A stretch of DNA of 52,381 nt from Candidatus Methanoperedens sp. (GTDB lineage: Archaea; Halobacteriota; Methanosarcinia; Methanosarcinales; Methanoperedenaceae): assembly GCA_030650845.1 (NCBI GenBank), contig JAUSDC010000187.1:1-52381 (forward strand). The letters run 5' to 3'. The translations under genes and the position numbers were made by a program. Under the pieces are notes generated by a model, which saw only the letters and a program-made list of their open reading frames with translations, ran no database searches and had not been told where the DNA came from. Of the stretch, positions 9,395 through 47,531 are shown piece by piece (position 1 is the first letter of the stretch; every line of letters begins with the position of its first letter).

Positions 9395-11644
9395 TTATGG
9401 GATTTGACTGAGTATTTGAAGGCATGCGTTTTTAATCTGCTCTGTGCCTATGGGATATCTCATGCAAATCTCAAGTGCGTCTTTTAATGCTCTCTGTGCC
9501 TTGGTGAAACCATGAATACTGATATACAAAATCCCCAGGTTCATAAAGCATCTTGCCTGTTCTATGGGTATATCTTTAAATTCCCTCAATGCTTTTTTGA
9601 AATTTGTTTCAGCCTCATTGAATCTGTATGTGTTCCTATAGACACTCCCCAGGTTCATAAGGCATCTTCCCTGGTCTATCTCTGTTCCTAGTATGGCTTT
9701 ATACATCATCAGTGCTTCTTTATAATTTTCCTCCGCTTCATTCAACCTGTCGTTATTTTGAATGGCATTTCCCAGATTCATAAGACATCCTGCCTGATCT
9801 ATCTCTGTTCCAGGTATCGCTCTAAACATCATCAGTGCATCTTTAAAATTTGCTTCAGCTTCATTGAATCCGCCCGTCCTTCTATAGACAACCCCTAAGT
9901 TCATAAGGCAATTTGCCTGTTTTATCTCAGTTCTGGGTACAGCTTTAAACGCCCTTAGCGCATCTATGTAATTTTCTTCAGCTTCATGAAGCCTGCCTGT
10001 GCTCCCATAGATATTCCCCAGATTCATAAAGCATACTGCCTGATCTATCTCTGTTCCAGGTATCCCTTTAAACACCCTCAGAGCATCTATATAATTTGCC
10101 TCAGCCTCATAGAATCTACCTGTGATACCATAGGAATTCCCCAGACTCATAAGGCAATCTGCCTGTTTTATCTCTGTCCCTGGTACAGCTTTAAACGCCC
10201 TCAGCGCATCCAAGTAATTTTCTTCAGCTTCATGAAAACTGCCTGTCATCACATAGACATTCCCCATATTCGCAAGGCAATTTGCCTGTTTTATCTCAGT
10301 TCTTGGTACAGCTTTAAACGCCCTCAGCGAATCTATGTAATTTTCTTCAGATTCATGAAGCCTGCATATGTTTCTATGGACAGTCCCTAAGTTCATAAGG
10401 CAATCTGCCTGATCTATTTCTGTTCCAGGTACAGTTTTAAGAATCCTCAACGCATCTTTATAATTTTCTTGAGCCTCATGAAACCTGTCTGTGCTTTTAT
10501 AGACAATTCCTATGTTAATAAGACATTTTGCCTGATCTATCTCTGTTCCTGGTATGGCTTTAATCCTTCTCAGCGCTTCCCTTAAGGGCATCTCACCACT
10601 ATTATAGTGGCCTATGTTGCAGAAAGCAAGACCTCTATTGAACCACCATACTGGTGAATCATCTATTTCCACTTCTGGGAAGCGATATTCTTTCTTAAAT
10701 TCCCCTTTATATGCATTAAGCATCTCATTTTTTAGTTCTGAAACATCATCGAAACGATTTTCTATCCCAAGCTGAAAGCAGCGAGTAATTATGCCTCTTA
10801 AGGATGCAGGCAAGTTATCTGAGACAACTTCTTGTATTCCATCATTTGTAAACCTTTCCGGGTGTGATCGAATATACTCAGCTCGATTTATCTGCTCATT
10901 CTGAGTATCTCCTCCCTTAAAGACATCATGCATGATCAGACCTATAGCAAACTGATCGGCACGATGGTCTACTTTCACTCCCACCAACTGTTCAGGCGCC
11001 ATATAACCAGGACTACCCAAAACCCCAGCACTGAAATCTGTAACCTTATAGATTCCAAATTTATAGACCATGATATTCTCAGGCTTCAAGTCCTTATGAG
11101 CAGAAATGCCGTGTTTATAAGCATGAAGCAAGCCCTCACATATCTGCAAACCCACACTGAAGGTTTCTTCCAGAGACAAACTTCCCTTTTCTATAACCAG
11201 AAGTCTCAGGTCTCCCCTTTCCACGAATTCACTGAAGACAAACGGCACATTTCTCTTTGTTGTATGATGGACGACATTTTCTAAAAGGTGAACTGAAACA
11301 ATGTTTGGATGCTGCCCCATCTCAAGCCAGGGAAGAGCTTCTTCCAGAAAATCTTTTGCTATTCTTTCTTGCTTGTAAGTAGGCAGTTCAAGGTAATCCT
11401 TTTGCAGGAATCGCTGCAAGGTTTTGGCAGCATATATCCTTTCACCAAAGCGAGTGGATTTTACAAAGAAGACCGCTCCAAATCCACCTGCGGTCAGCGC
11501 CAGAACTTTGAAGTCATCTCCAAAGCTATCGTTATAGTGCCATGGTAGAAAGATGCCTTCCTTCTCCAAACGCTCTTCAGATCGCTGGCTTGATTCATTT
11601 TGCCAGGGATGTTTAGGCGCTGATTTATTATAAAATATATACAT
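9395..11644 (-). CDS. Ser/Thr protein kinase with ~41-residue TPR-like repeats
   Basis: This 749-residue protein has an N-terminal protein kinase domain: Gly loop TAGGFGAVF (~51-59), ATP lysine in YAAKTL (K74), catalytic loop AHKDLKPENIM (HKD at 183-185 instead of HRD), metal loop VTDFSAG (DFS instead of DFG) and MAPEQ (215-219). HKD and DFS are unusual but keep both aspartates, so activity is plausible. From ~330 to the end come about ten repeats of ~41 residues of the type CLMNLGNVY-x-x-TGRFHEAEENY-x-DALR-x-FKAVPGTEIDQA. These are TPR-like and probably bind proteins. No membrane segment is seen, so it should be cytoplasmic. It is the last gene of the minus-strand block, 102 bp after the preceding kinase. 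Confidence 0.85.
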   Translation of the reverse strand: MYIFYNKSAPKHPWQNESSQRSEERLEKEGIFLPWHYNDSFGDDFKVLALTAGGFGAVFFVKSTRFGERIYAAKTLQRFLQKDYLELPTYKQERIAKDFLEEALPWLEMGQHPNIVSVHLLENVVHHTTKRNVPFVFSEFVERGDLRLLVIEKGSLSLEETFSVGLQICEGLLHAYKHGISAHKDLKPENIMVYKFGIYKVTDFSAGVLGSPGYMAPEQLVGVKVDHRADQFAIGLIMHDVFKGGDTQNEQINRAEYIRSHPERFTNDGIQEVVSDNLPASLRGIITRCFQLGIENRFDDVSELKNEMLNAYKGEFKKEYRFPEVEIDDSPVWWFNRGLAFCNIGHYNSGEMPLREALRRIKAIPGTEIDQAKCLINIGIVYKSTDRFHEAQENYKDALRILKTVPGTEIDQADCLMNLGTVHRNICRLHESEENYIDSLRAFKAVPRTEIKQANCLANMGNVYVMTGSFHEAEENYLDALRAFKAVPGTEIKQADCLMSLGNSYGITGRFYEAEANYIDALRVFKGIPGTEIDQAVCFMNLGNIYGSTGRLHEAEENYIDALRAFKAVPRTEIKQANCLMNLGVVYRRTGGFNEAEANFKDALMMFRAIPGTEIDQAGCLMNLGNAIQNNDRLNEAEENYKEALMMYKAILGTEIDQGRCLMNLGSVYRNTYRFNEAETNFKKALREFKDIPIEQARCFMNLGILYISIHGFTKAQRALKDALEICMRYPIGTEQIKNACLQILSQIP
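9560..10600 (-). repeat. ~123-bp coding tandem repeats (TPR array)
   Basis: The repeat part of the gene is built of about 123-bp units encoding the 41-residue motif. Recurring blocks on the plus strand include CTGATCTATCTCTGTTCC and TTTTCTTCAGCTTCATGAA. Units differ by scattered substitutions, which suggests expansion by duplication followed by drift. Boundaries are approximate. Confidence 0.7.
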
Positions 11645-19999: not shown

Positions 20000-22009
20000 T
20001 CAAACAATCTCCTCAAGCTGGCGGATAGTTTCTTTAACGCCCTCGATATATACGGCATACTTGGGTGGTGCAAATTTGATAAAATTCTTATAAGATAACA
20101 GTGCTTCCTGATTCCTGCCAAGGTTAGACAGCACATTTCCTTTGTTAATCAAGGCCTCAGAATATCTTGGATTTATCTCAAGGGCTTTATCAAAGCATGC
20201 TACTGCATCCTCGTGTATGCCTAATATAACCAATGCAACCCCTTTGTTAGCCCATGCCTCATCATCTCTTGGATTAATCTCAAGGACTTTGTCGAAGCAT
20301 ATTACTGCTTCCTGATGCATACCCAGTTTTAGCAACGCATTTCCTTTGTTATACCAAGCCTTAACATGTCTAGGATTAATCTCAAGGGTTTTATCATAGC
20401 ACATAACTGCTTCCTGATGCATACCCAGATTACTCAGTTCATTTCCTTTGTTATACCAAGCCTTAACATGTCTAGGATTAATCTCAAGGGCTTTATCATA
20501 GCATGCTAATGCTTCCCGCTTACCCAGCGCATTTCCTTTGTTATACCAAGCTTCATCATCTCTAGGATTAATCTCAAGGGCTTTATCATAGCATGCTAAT
20601 GCTTCCTGATGCCTGCCTAGGTTTTGCAGCGCATTTCCTTTGCTATTCCAAGCCTCAGCATGTCTTGGATTAATATCAAGAGCTTTATCATAGCATGCTA
20701 ATGCTTCTTGATGCATACCCAGCTCATCCAGCGTATTTCCTTTGTTATTCCAAGCCCCAGCATATCTTGGATTAATCTCAAGAGCTTTATTATAGCATGC
20801 CAATGCTTCCTGATACTTGCCCAGATCATGCATCACATTTCCTTTGTTATACCAAGCCCCAGCATATCTTGGATTAATCTCAAGAGCTTTATTATAGCAT
20901 GCCAATGCTTCCTGATACTTGACCAAGTTTCGCAGTGCATTTCCTTTGTTATTCCAGGATTCAGCAAATCTTGGATTAATCTCAAGGGCTTTATCATGGC
21001 ATGTAAGCGCTTCCTGATACCTGCCCAGATTATCTAGTGCAATTCCTTTGTCATTTAGTTCCCATATTTCGATTTCTTCAGTTGGCTCTTCAATAATTCT
21101 TTCACCAGTTAAATCAAAATATATTTTTGAAAGTTTCACTTTTAGATCTCTGAAGTTCTGGTATCTCCTGCCCGGTTCTTTCTCCAAGCATTTTTGTATT
21201 ACAGCATTCAACTCCCGAGGAATATTCTGTTTAATAGACAATGGAGATTCTTTTAAATGCATCTCCTTCCATGGACTCTTCCTTGGGTAGGGATAACTGC
21301 CAGCAACCATCTGGTACAGAACTATCCCAAAAGCATAGATATCAGCCCTTGTATCGATTTCTTTGCCTGTGAACTGTTCAGGAGCCATATAAAGTAGTGT
21401 ACCAGCAGGACCACTCTGGATATAGCTTATATCATTTGGAACTTCTGTCATTTCTGGTGTTGTTTCTCTTGCCTTTGCCAGACCAAAATCTGTTATTTTT
21501 AAAGTTTTATCACTGGTAAGTAATATGTTACCCGGCTTAATATCTCTATGAATGAGCTGCATTTTTTCATATGCATATTCCATCCCATTGCAGAACTGGA
21601 CAGCGAAGTTCATGGCTAAAGGAAGATCTAACATTTTTGTATAAAGCCAGTCATCCAGATTACCACCAGCTATGTATTCCAGGAAAATATAAGGCTGATA
21701 TTCAATGTTTTCTACGTATATTGCTTTGACAATGTTCTTATGCTTATCAAGCTTTATCCAGGTGAGAGACTCCCGGGTAAAATCATCCCTTGCCTTCTGA
21801 CTGTGCAGAAACCTTGCCTGAAATGTTTTAATTGCAAGCGGCATTTTGTATTCATGGTCATAGCATATATACACAATCCCGAAACCGCCTCTCTTTATAT
21901 CGTGTATTTCATACCTGTTCTCAATTATATCCCCTATCTGCCATCGCTCCTGCTCGTCTGCTCCGGCGATATCCTCTTTTTTCCTCCTCAAATTGTCAAG
22001 CAGTCCCAT
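20000..22009 (-). CDS. Ser/Thr protein kinase with ten TPR repeats
   Basis: The start is chosen at the ATG at 22009, which has GGAGAG eight bases upstream; an in-frame ATG at 22051 lacks a ribosome site. The 669-residue protein has a canonical Hanks kinase: RGGFGIVY, AIKTF (K61), LIHRDIKPGNILL (HRD 154-156), ITDFGLAKA (174-176) and MAPEQFTGKEIDTRADIYAFGI. Ten TPR units follow from ~325, almost identical to each other (N-K-G-N-A-L-x-N-L-G, EALACYDKALEINPR). The sixth unit lacks 4 residues (NALGKREALACY). It is the first gene of the minus-strand block and is likely to be the main kinase. A TATA-like box lies at 22052-22062. Confidence 0.9.
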   Translation of the reverse strand: MGLLDNLRRKKEDIAGADEQERWQIGDIIENRYEIHDIKRGGFGIVYICYDHEYKMPLAIKTFQARFLHSQKARDDFTRESLTWIKLDKHKNIVKAIYVENIEYQPYIFLEYIAGGNLDDWLYTKMLDLPLAMNFAVQFCNGMEYAYEKMQLIHRDIKPGNILLTSDKTLKITDFGLAKARETTPEMTEVPNDISYIQSGPAGTLLYMAPEQFTGKEIDTRADIYAFGIVLYQMVAGSYPYPRKSPWKEMHLKESPLSIKQNIPRELNAVIQKCLEKEPGRRYQNFRDLKVKLSKIYFDLTGERIIEEPTEEIEIWELNDKGIALDNLGRYQEALTCHDKALEINPRFAESWNNKGNALRNLVKYQEALACYNKALEINPRYAGAWYNKGNVMHDLGKYQEALACYNKALEINPRYAGAWNNKGNTLDELGMHQEALACYDKALDINPRHAEAWNSKGNALQNLGRHQEALACYDKALEINPRDDEAWYNKGNALGKREALACYDKALEINPRHVKAWYNKGNELSNLGMHQEAVMCYDKTLEINPRHVKAWYNKGNALLKLGMHQEAVICFDKVLEINPRDDEAWANKGVALVILGIHEDAVACFDKALEINPRYSEALINKGNVLSNLGRNQEALLSYKNFIKFAPPKYAVYIEGVKETIRQLEEIV
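20120..21060 (-). repeat. ~102-bp coding tandem repeats (TPR array)
   Basis: Nine to ten units of 102 bp encode the 34-residue TPRs of the first kinase. Adjacent units are nearly identical over long stretches, with GGATTAATCTCAAGGGCTTT recurring on the plus strand. One unit is short by 12 bp. Such identity at DNA level suggests recent duplication or gene conversion. Confidence 0.8.
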
Positions 22010-38349: not shown

Positions 38350-38440
38350 TAGTTGCAGTAAAATGAATATACTGTAACTTAGTTGCAGTGTTTTAAATTT
38401 ACTGAAACTAAGTTTCAGTAAACTGGATTTATTGAAACTT
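38350..38440 (+). promoter_or_regulatory. Phased operator array (19-bp palindromes every 30 bp)
   Basis: ACTGTAACTTAGTTGCAGT (38371-38389) and ACTGAAACTAAGTTTCAGT (38401-38419) are palindromes centred at 38380 and 38410. Half-sites AGTTGCAGT (38351-38359) and ATTGAAACT (38431-38439) fall where further palindromes centred at 38350 and 38440 would be. The last touches the TATA box, so a repressor bound here would block transcription of 38480-38689. Confidence 0.7.
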
Positions 38441-38449
38441 ATAATATAA
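38440..38449 (+). promoter_or_regulatory. TATA box of the small gene at 38480
   Basis: TATAATATAA lies 30-40 bases before the ATG at 38480, directly after the operator array. The transcript would have a very short leader. Confidence 0.55.
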
Positions 38450-44631: not shown

Positions 44632-45903
44632 TTATGTTCGAGCCAGTAAGGGCTCTTTATGTTCATGAATATCGATCTTCGGCGCTGTGAGACGCTCGAA
44701 TTCTCCAAGTATGGGCTTGATGACAGGAGGGCGCTGCAACGATTTAAGAAGCGTTTCCTGCGCTTTAAGACCGTTGCCTGTTACATAGACCACCACGCGC
44801 TCATCGCGTTTTATATGACCGCTCTCTACCAGTTTCTTTAATCCTGCAACCGTAGTGCCGCCTGCGGGTTCAGTGAAAATGCCTTCTGTCCTTGCAAGAA
44901 GATGTATCGCATCTATGATCTCAGGATCCGTTGGGGTGGCTGCAAATCCGCCTGAATCAAGTATTGTCTTTTTTGCATAGTAGCCGTCAGCAGGATTTCC
45001 AATTGCAAGGCTGTGAGCAATGGTCTCGAATTTCCGCACAGGCACAACCTCGCTGTTGTTCTGCACCGCAGTTGATATGGGGGAACAGTTAAGCGGCTGG
45101 GAGCCGGAAATTTTCACGTCCGCGCTGTCAACAAGACCTACGCGTTCCAGTTCCTTATACCCGCGGGATATGGCGCAAAGAAGTGCACCGCTTGCCATAG
45201 GGGCAACGATGTGATCAGGGACGGTCCAGTTCAACTGCTCTGCAGTTTCGTAAGCCAATGTCTTTGAACCTTCGGTATAATAGGGACGGATATTGATATT
45301 TACAAAAGCCCAATCCGGATGGGAATCGGCCACTTCACTTGCAAGGCGGTTGGCATCATCGTATGTGCCTTCCACAGCGATGACATTAGGACCGTAGATG
45401 AGCATCTGTACGATCTTGCCGAGTTCAATGGTCGCAGGGATAAAAATATAAGCCGGAAGTCCAGCTTTTGCTGCATGTGCCCCCACTGCTGCTGCAAGGT
45501 TGCCCGTGCTTGCACATCCTACTGCTTTCACATCGAATTCAATGGCTTTTGAGATCGCAACTGATGTGACCCTGTCTTTGAATGAGTTGGTCGGGTTGAC
45601 GGATTCATCAATAATATATAGTTCATCAAGTCCGAGAGCCGCTCCAAGACGATGCGCATGGTGAAGTTTGTTAAATCCTGCGCCAAGGTCGATGCGTTTC
45701 TCGGATTCAAGCGGTAAAAGGTCTGCGTATCTCCATATTGATTTTGGTCCTGATGCTATTTTTTCCTTGCTGATATGGTCTGAGATATAGTCCCAGTCGT
45801 AGTTGACCTCAAGGGGTCCGAAACATTCATAACATGTATTCTGGATAACGGCAGGGTATTCAGCTCCGCATTCCCTGCATTTCAATCCAATGACGTGACT
45901 CAT
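44632..45903 (-). CDS. thrC: Threonine synthase
   Basis: The enzyme converts O-phosphohomoserine to threonine with PLP. The start is moved to the ATG at 45903, which has GAGGTGA four bases upstream; an earlier in-frame start at 45954 lacks one. The 423-residue protein has an N-terminal zinc-ribbon-like CRECGAEY...CYECFGPL. The PLP lysine is in NPTNSFKDRVTSVA, the phosphate loop in ASTGNLAAAVGAHA, and ends with VVYVTGNGLKAQE. The fit to archaeal/plant-type ThrC is good. A TATA box (TATATAA) lies at about 45936-45945. Confidence 0.93.
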   Translation of the reverse strand: MSHVIGLKCRECGAEYPAVIQNTCYECFGPLEVNYDWDYISDHISKEKIASGPKSIWRYADLLPLESEKRIDLGAGFNKLHHAHRLGAALGLDELYIIDESVNPTNSFKDRVTSVAISKAIEFDVKAVGCASTGNLAAAVGAHAAKAGLPAYIFIPATIELGKIVQMLIYGPNVIAVEGTYDDANRLASEVADSHPDWAFVNINIRPYYTEGSKTLAYETAEQLNWTVPDHIVAPMASGALLCAISRGYKELERVGLVDSADVKISGSQPLNCSPISTAVQNNSEVVPVRKFETIAHSLAIGNPADGYYAKKTILDSGGFAATPTDPEIIDAIHLLARTEGIFTEPAGGTTVAGLKKLVESGHIKRDERVVVYVTGNGLKAQETLLKSLQRPPVIKPILGEFERLTAPKIDIHEHKEPLLART

Positions 45904-46021
45904 TTTAACTTCACCTCTGCATAATACAACATTACCATATATAATATTTACCATATCAGTAGATAACTGCAGGTTATATTATTAAGGTATTATGGATTTA
46001 TAGTCAAAATACGGACGTTTA

Positions 46022-46090
46022 CAACGAACTGATACGAACTCGAACGAACTCCAGAAGCATGAGTTCGTTTCAGTTCGTACGAGTTAGTTG
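46022..46090. promoter_or_regulatory. 30-bp imperfect inverted repeat made of 10-bp ACGAACT units
   Basis: Left arm 46022-46051 and right arm 46061-46090 pair with about five mismatches around a 9-base loop. Each arm consists of three 10-bp-phased units: CAACGAACTG, ATACGAACTC, GAACGAACTC on the left, and the inverse on the right. It lies between the divergent promoters of thrC and the ferredoxin-geranylgeranyl reductase pair, a likely regulator-binding platform. Confidence 0.65.
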
Positions 46091-46143
46091 TTTATGAAAT
46101 CCTTTTGATCTAGTCTAAAATGCATTCTCCAAAAAGACCCGAT

Positions 46144-46154
46144 AAAATATATAC
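46144..46154 (+). promoter_or_regulatory. TATA box of the ferredoxin/reductase operon
   Basis: AAAATATATAC lies about 30-39 bases before the ferredoxin ATG at 46183, predicting a very short leader. Confidence 0.5.
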
Positions 46155-46182: not shown

Positions 46183-46359
46183 ATGAGTGTCGAAGTGAAT
46201 CGTTATAAATGCGGATATTGTGGCGCCTGTGTGGGCGTTTGCCCTGAAGGAGCCCTGGAGCTAATTGAGACCTGGATCGAAGTAGATAATTCTTGTACAA
46301 GTTGCGGCGTATGCGCAAAGATCTGTCCCGTAGGCGCTCTGGAGGTCAGGGTGAAATGA
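46183..46359 (+). CDS. 2[4Fe-4S] ferredoxin
   Basis: The 58-residue protein has two complete cluster motifs: [16 protein letters not shown] and [16 protein letters not shown], each C-x2-C-x2-C-x3-C-P. It overlaps the reductase start by four bases (ATGA), so it is almost certainly the dedicated electron donor for that enzyme. A similar ferredoxin next to geranylgeranyl reductase is known from methanosarcinal archaea. Confidence 0.95.
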
Positions 46360-47531
46360 AAGACAGCTATGATGTCATCGTGGTTGGGGCTGGACCCGGG
46401 GGTTCGATCACAGCAAAGACCTGCGCCGAAGGAGGCCTTGATGTTCTGCTTATTGAAAAAAGACAGGAAATCGGAGATCCGGTCAGATGTGCTGAAGGCG
46501 TTGGAAAAGATCAATTATTAAAGCACATAGCGCCAGACAAACGATGGATATCAGCCGAAGTAAAAGGTTCAAGGATCGTTGCTCCTGACGGAACTGAGAT
46601 ATTAATGTCCTGTGATGCTGCCATGAAAGACGTGGGTTATACGCTCGAACGAAAAGTGTTTGACAGGGTGCTTGCCCAGAAAGCTGCCATGGCAGGAGCC
46701 GAAGTTCGGGTAAAGACCCGGGCTACCGGATTATTGAAAAATAACGGAAAGGTGTCTGGCATCAAAGCAATGTATATGGGAGACATGTTTGATATCAAAG
46801 CGAATATCGTCATCGGCGCGGATGGGATCGAGTCCAAGATCGGAAGATGGGGCGGAATAGATACCTCGTTAAAACCGCATGATATAGAGACATGCGCGCA
46901 ATTTCTTATCTCAAATATCGATCCTGGAGAATATAGCAAATTCTACATCGGAGAAAAATATTCATCAGGTGGATATGTCTGGATTTTTCCGAAAGGAGGA
47001 AATACAGCTAATGTTGGGATCGGGATACTTGGCAGCAAATCAGGAAAGATCAGGGCACTATCTCTCCTTACTAAATTTGTTGAGACTTCCATACCCCAGG
47101 GCAAGATCATAGAAATGGTGGTTGGGGGGGTTCCTGTTAGCGGACCAATTAAAAAGACGATAGCTGACGGGCTGATGCTTGTTGGAGATGCAGCAAGGCA
47201 GTCAGATCCCCTGACTGGCGGCGGCATAACCAATGCTATGGATGCTGGAAAGATAGCAGGTGAGGTCTGCATTAAAGCGAAAGAGAAGGGAGATTATTCG
47301 GTTAAGACCCTGAAAGAATATGAAGACCGGTGGCGCGCCACTATCGGAAAAGAGATTGAAAGGTCGTTGAAGGTCAAGAACCTGATGGTAAACCTCAATG
47401 ATGAACAATTTAACAAGCTTGCACATTCTTTGGATGGCGTGGATGCGAGTAATATGGAACTGCCACATATGCTGGCTGTCATTTTCAAGAAAAATCCGAA
47501 ATTGCTCTGGGAACTCAGGTCGCTTTTCTAG
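46356..47531 (+). CDS. Digeranylgeranylglycerophospholipid reductase (geranylgeranyl reductase family)
   Basis: The flavoenzyme saturates the isoprenoid chains of archaeal membrane lipids. The start is the ATG at 46356, which overlaps the ferredoxin stop; an upstream TTG in frame lies within the ferredoxin gene. The 391-residue protein has the FAD motif [19 protein letters not shown] (6-24), [11 protein letters not shown] (the conserved Cys-containing loop of this family), [16 protein letters not shown], the YVWIFPKG motif, and [19 protein letters not shown] for FAD binding. Presence of this enzyme is strong evidence for an archaeon. Confidence 0.95.

Follow-up and report, generated by a model that had tools for sequence, protein, structure and literature searches.

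The divergent intergenic region between thrC and a ferredoxin-geranylgeranyl reductase (GGR) operon of Candidatus Methanoperedens sp. contains a symmetrical inverted repeat, which raises the question of whether this repeat controls the neighboring genes, folds into a structure of its own, or is one copy of an element dispersed through the genome. The repeat lies in the window, that is, the whole stretch of 52,381 nucleotides that was analyzed (contig JAUSDC010000187.1). A preliminary description had reported a 69-bp symmetrical element of phased ACGAACT units at this point, and the element is real, with a measured length of 71 bp (46021-46091) and 3+3 units. The neighboring genes had also been named correctly, with matches of thrC to TIGR00260 and of GGR to TIGR02032, and a small ferredoxin, for which none of the models listed exceeded its cut-off. 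The features of the locus are as follows:

44632-45903, minus strand: thrC, threonine synthase, the divergent neighbor (TIGR00260)
45986-46110, no strand: inserted DNA, approximate full extent (inverted repeat plus non-repeat flanks), with uncertain ends, estimated from element-less syntenic relatives and related copies
46021-46091, no strand: phased inverted repeat of class A (ACGAACT), a gene-less copy of a dispersed family, 71 bp
46021-46051, plus strand: left arm, formed by ACA, three ACGAACT units at 46024, 46034, and 46044 (spacers GAT and CGA), and a final C
46052-46060, no strand: loop of 9 nt, with a core-to-core gap of 11
46061-46091, minus strand: right arm, with units at 46062, 46072, and 46082, the last of which reads ACTAACT
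46142-46153, plus strand: putative TATA region of the ferredoxin-GGR operon, ATAAAATATATA, identified by eye and similar in element-less relatives
46183-46359, plus strand: small 4Fe-4S ferredoxin, with none of the models listed above its cut-off
46356-47531, plus strand: geranylgeranyl reductase family protein (GGR; TIGR02032)

Dispersal and geometry of the ACGAACT arrays

The two arms of the window copy, of 31 nt each, are 84% complementary, and their units are spaced 10 bp apart. A three-unit pattern (up to 3 mismatches) has two matches in the window, both at 46021-46091, and none in 100 dinucleotide shuffles. The window also contains other repeats, such as the quasi-palindromic sequences with AGTTGCAGT and ACTGAAACT words at 38350-38441, which do not form a dispersed family (three BLAST matches genome-wide, two of them at the same place), and long tandem repeats at 9601-10580 and 20102-21051, with periods of 123 and 102 bp, which are probably parts of repeat proteins.

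Rather than being unique, the ACGAACT repeat belongs to a family that is scattered through the genomes of Ca. Methanoperedens. The genome of the window (G000: 3.41 Mb in 258 contigs, 97.6% complete) contains 228 matches to a two-unit pattern (up to 2 mismatches), versus 30 for the reversed pattern, and BLAST searches with the 71 bp recovered at least 64 matches at a minimum of 40 distinct places, with 40 of the 79 candidates scored. Matches were found in 31 of the 40 relatives examined, with a maximum of 175 in one member of the genus, while the counts in most genomes from the order's other families were near the background, the high counts being those of Ca. Methanoperedens. Named genomes were also scanned for three exact units, and most of the matches listed likewise belonged to Candidatus Methanoperedens.

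The geometry of the copies was evaluated in the stretches fetched, after deduplication of the arrays by sequence and the omission of 26 loci, comprising 20 bacterial records and six loci from other families of the order; the analyses of arm pairing, empty sites, intergenic location, and target-site duplication drew on the same reduced list. The unit order is exactly +++--- in 44 of 63 arrays in the window's genome and in 47 of the 123 arrays from elsewhere, and the core-to-core gap is most commonly 11 (73 of the 110 arrays whose arms each have two or more units), followed by 12 (18/110). The copies are intergenic, and only 3 of the 63 arrays of the window's genome lie inside an open reading frame of approximately 100 or more codons, versus 866 of 1260 random places taken from the same loci, and 21 of the 63 elements are found between convergent genes. 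The 20 bacterial records that were left out consist mostly of 10-bp tandem repeats in head-to-tail order or of isolated triplets, including the plain ACGAACT tandem repeats without inverted arms in Psychrobacter and a Schlesneria bin (L105, L119, L157, and L160). The +++--- pair occurs in only one of them (L142, Bacteroidales bacterium KA25), which has the same composite as the Ca. Methanoperedens copies and is probably a mis-binned Methanoperedens contig.

The proposal that units one helical turn apart behave as protein sites is supported by the pattern of variation. Among the copies in which both arms keep exact 10-bp spacing (33 elements), the cores are nearly invariant, and arm-to-arm pairing at the positions that vary, most of which are in the 3-bp spacers, is 0.35 within elements versus 0.53 between elements, although these elements share ancestry, and the anti-pairing may thus reflect a single asymmetric founder. 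Given that spacer pairing is not maintained, the stability of a stem does not appear to be what is conserved.

The window's genome also has dispersed copies of other words, such as CACAGAG (66 matches vs. 0 in the control) and GCAGAT (48 vs. 1), which also form phased arrays, for example, at C77:809-871 and C56:9111-9272. In one ACGAACT subfamily (GGT), for which 24 copies from the window's genome were aligned, several copies are nested within arrays of other words. The copies of this subfamily inside CACAGAG or CGCAAAG arrays (L007, L210, L212, L016, and L056) may represent composites or preferred targets.

GxxExxY genes and their flanking words

The protein encoded beside the arrays belongs to the GxxExxY family (TIGR04256/PF13366), scoring above the curated cut-off of TIGR04256 and containing the GxxExxY motif. 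The Pfam name of PF13366 is PDDEXK_3, which denotes the PD-(D/E)XK nuclease fold. Proteins of this family are widespread, yet we know of no role assigned to them. A search of 31 genomes of the genus recovered 56 matches to the family, and ACGAACT arrays lie within 400 bp of 9 of the 50 matches examined; a broken gene of the family is located among ACGAACT arrays in Ca. M. nitroreducens. Many other GxxExxY genes are flanked by phased inverted arrays of different words, which include CGCAGAT, ACAGGAT, CGCAAAG, CACAGAG, and CGGAT. In the list of recurring neighbors, GxxExxY is the only small gene embedded between arrays, and the others are mostly ordinary chromosomal genes.

This association was quantified by the inverted match between the 300-bp flanks of each gene. 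Of the 40 complete genes in the first set, 26 belong to the genus and 14 were taken from other genomes; partial matches were left out, as were L236, L241, and L244, which are close to the ends of their contigs. A score of at least 14, a cut-off picked after this set had been seen, was reached by 30 of the 40 genes and by none of 255 control open reading frames, which were the other reading frames of the fetched loci rather than an independent genome sample; when direct matches were also counted, these values were 34/40 and 3/255. The same cut-off was reached in the two sets scored afterwards, by 4 of 8 plasmid GxxExxY genes of named bacteria, and by 17 of 29 GxxExxY genes from the same phylum as the window but from other families, versus 0 of 10 controls. 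The genes below an inverted score of 14 (10/40, 4/8, and 12/29, respectively) include several with one-sided or weaker arrays. The family was not found in phage records (one query) or in viral contigs (three queries, covering close relatives only).

The words track the phylogeny of the protein. Eight word classes, which had been defined by eye ahead of this test, require 11 changes on a tree of 41 GxxExxY proteins, compared with a minimum of seven and a mean of 27.5 in shuffles, none of which (0/200) was as low. Within the genus, six word classes require five changes, which is the minimum. The six complete class A (ACGAACT) genes of the tree form a single clade with a support of 100/100, and other GxxExxY clades sit among arrays of other words. 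The number of ACGAACT matches is nevertheless out of step with the presence of the class A gene, given that the search found no class A gene in a genome with 125 matches (G015), and that another genome has nine matches and an intact gene (G003). This mismatch is expected if the elements outlive the gene, although it does not constitute proof.

The residues that are invariant in all 17 aligned proteins include E29 (of the GxxExxY motif), D68, E78, K80, Q92, and Y96, and all are present in the class A gene of the window's own genome (C228; locus L241). Four of these residues, E29, D68, E78, and K80, suit a PD-(D/E)XK active site, with putative catalytic roles that derive from the fold family. 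A single-sequence AlphaFold2 model of the nuclease was of low confidence, with a pLDDT of 37, and a profile search of solved structures returned no significant match (best E 0.036), with T7 endonuclease I at an E of 1.0, which is a chance-level lead.

The gene-bearing forms vary in their anatomy. The units within 260 bp of the gene, as read by eye, are all + before and all - after it in 17 of 41 GxxExxY genes, while the reverse order (- before, + after) is seen in three of the 41, all of class A, and the arrays of the remaining genes are mixed, one-sided, or not detected. Three of the six class A genes have this reverse order, whereas + before and - after is the usual arrangement in classes B-F. 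Certain distances recur, with downstream units that begin at 48, 58, and 68 in three genes of class B, and upstream units that begin at -25, -16, and -7 in three genes of class D. At three loci (L242, L270, and L276), the GxxExxY reading frame runs into the array, which is then translated at the N- or C-terminus.

One ACGAACT copy (L154) is absent from a syntenic relative (L131) with flanks that are approximately 92% identical, and the missing piece, of approximately 127 bp, exceeds the inverted repeat and ends near GGTATGAA and TTCATACC. A complete array-gene-array unit of class B is also missing at a syntenic site, with a query gap of 863, a subject gap of 10, and flanks that are approximately 71% identical. 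These empty sites come from diverged genomes, and the ends of the elements are thus approximate. No target-site duplication was found at a constant offset in 89 elements, whose ends are uncertain; the best 4-mer agreement was 0.39, at the AT-rich edge, compared with maxima of up to 0.38 in a null of 12 permutations on a coarser grid (k = 5 and 8), and no longer duplication was prominent. In the window's genome, the element at C51 corresponds to that at C228 minus the gene, with the arrays remaining, and this deletion thus represents a route by which gene-less copies can arise.

Competing explanations of the repeat

The dispersal of the family, its prevailing 3+3 geometry, intergenic location, and presence or absence at syntenic sites, the linkage with GxxExxY genes, the tracking of protein clades by words, and the gene-deleted derivative are all observed directly. 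The repeat of the window is probably a copy of a non-autonomous mobile element of the REPIN or MITE type, the ends of which are the sites of a cognate GxxExxY nuclease that acts in trans. In this mechanism, the ends would be formed by triplets of phased 7-bp words, bound by a cognate protein of approximately 126 amino acids of the PD-(D/E)XK type. In other clades, many of the genes lie between two unit triplets, in an arm-gene-arm arrangement, while the gene-less copies, including that of the window, retain the arms and a short loop and would depend on a protein supplied in trans. The copy of the window would have landed between the promoters of thrC and the ferredoxin-GGR operon, in the lineage of the window only. 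Binding of the word by its GxxExxY protein, cutting at the element, and the spread of the element through this activity are inferred. Several observations speak against this reading, namely, the mismatch between the ACGAACT counts and the class A gene, the failure to find a target-site duplication, the mixed orientation of the class A arrays, and the genes with flanks that score below 14.

The arrays could instead be bound by a regulator of the host or by a chromatin protein, with the GxxExxY genes being parasites, similar to homing endonucleases, that insert in or beside them. Helical-turn units, conserved cores, and free spacers would suit a protein array of this type, and the order +++ gene --- would also result if a gene had entered the loop of a pre-existing inverted repeat. 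The empty sites, however, lack the whole array or the array-gene-array unit, rather than the gene alone, and the words vary with the GxxExxY clade, with six in a single genus, a pattern that one host regulator would not account for. Given this, and the lack of conservation of the array at the window's operon, this explanation is considered unlikely.

It is also improbable that the repeat is an ordinary MITE mobilized by a conventional transposase located elsewhere in the genome, with the GxxExxY genes as hitch-hikers. The MITE-like size and inverted ends are consistent with this possibility, and the present observations do not themselves identify the enzyme. Hitch-hiking would not tie a word to a GxxExxY clade, however, and the embedding of GxxExxY, and of no other recurring small gene in the list, between the arrays also argues against it.

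A selected cruciform or RNA hairpin, acting as a terminator, small RNA, or RNA-processing element, is very unlikely. Folding of the repeat as single-stranded DNA is favorable (z = -6.4), so that the cruciform suggested in the preliminary description is physically possible, and positions between convergent genes are frequent. The stability proposed for this structure is not reflected in the arms, however, given that their spacers are non-complementary and that the unpaired variant ACTAACT recurs in one arm. A search for a terminator-like site found none, and no Rfam family reached its gathering score, the matches being sub-threshold and mostly to microRNA families, as is typical of any hairpin.

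The remaining proposal, that the repeat is a control site for membrane-lipid saturation, was to be checked by aligning the region in relatives. Of the 31 genomes of the genus, 29, including that of the window, have a matching GGR gene, and the scan of these 29 loci found the array only at the window's own locus, the outcome that the description itself had set against its proposal; an operon-specific regulatory site was thus rejected, as no unit arrays are conserved upstream of the ferredoxin-GGR operon at the other loci (0/28). In most relatives, a AATAAAATTTATAT-like promoter region near the start of the ferredoxin gene is conserved, as judged by eye from the upstream sequences, and the insertion of the window lies approximately 50 bp farther upstream. 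The two relatives that show the thrC-side sequence (L181 and L183) retain the AT-rich region on this side and lack the element. Control of the ferredoxin-GGR operon or of thrC by the repeat is suggested by its position in a divergent intergenic region, some 50 bp upstream of the putative TATA region, but given its absence from the other 28 loci and the presence of the same element beside many unrelated genes, such control is so improbable as to be nearly negligible, and could now amount only to a side effect on transcription in this lineage. The operon is directly preceded in many relatives by a recurring open reading frame of approximately 60-70 codons, which starts like MLETSKERVKLLKAG (L189-L191, L193-L197, L199, L200, L202, L204, and L205).

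Relation to known systems and significance

The closest known system is that of the REPINs and RAYTs, described in the available text of Bertels and Rainey (2011; PMC3116915) as extragenic inverted doublets of several flavors, each beside its own gene. The features shared, as far as that text goes, are the short inverted pairs, their extragenic location and many copies, and the presence of several flavors per genome, each beside a dedicated partner gene, which is GxxExxY here, rather than RAYT. The partner of the REPINs is an HUH Y1 tyrosine transposase, as outlined in the same text, whereas that of the arrays is a PD-(D/E)XK protein (PF13366); a REPIN arm is a single palindromic REP, whereas each arm here is a triplet of phased 7-bp words; and the GxxExxY gene, unlike the RAYT gene in that account, is often found within the pair of arms. 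Given these differences in the enzyme class and the architecture of the sites, the ACGAACT element was not filed as a REPIN.

Like the MITEs, the gene-less copies are non-autonomous, with inverted ends and a gene-deleted derivative (C51 vs. C228), assuming that the gene-bearing form is autonomous. They differ in having ends of phased words, no known transposase, and no target-site duplication at a constant offset in the elements examined, and the core inverted repeat (71 bp) is smaller than the approximately 100-400 bp given for MITEs in the available text of PMC3116915. The tandem repeats of the Borgs of Ca. Methanoperedens are found in the same host genus, but the available text of PMC9879509 describes them as head-to-tail, perfect, and virtually absent from the host genomes, and the inverted +++--- geometry of the arrays rules out a repeat of the Borg type.

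A further parallel is provided by the homing endonuclease genes of the PD-(D/E)XK type, which, like the GxxExxY genes, are small nuclease genes that lie within their presumed recognition sequence. In the present elements, however, the recognition arrays appear to move together with the gene, and the gene-less copies are far more numerous.

In the literature searched, from which subscription journals were mostly absent, there was no report of flanking repeats in the GxxExxY family, so that a prior description is possible. This literature also contained no mention of six of the unit words, and nothing that combined Methanoperedens with miniature inverted repeats.

Belief and doubt are evenly balanced on the broader proposal that these forms represent an unrecognized and very widespread type of minimal mobile element in archaea and bacteria, in which one GxxExxY nuclease gene lies between two triplets of phased words, accompanied by swarms of gene-less inverted-repeat copies, with the enzyme and the word co-diversifying, and each clade having its own recognition code. 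If the GxxExxY proteins do mobilize the phased intergenic repeats of archaea and bacteria, a large unexplained class of repeats and an orphan nuclease family would be explained together, and the protein clades, each with a different 5-7-bp word, would represent a natural series from which a DNA recognition code could be learned.
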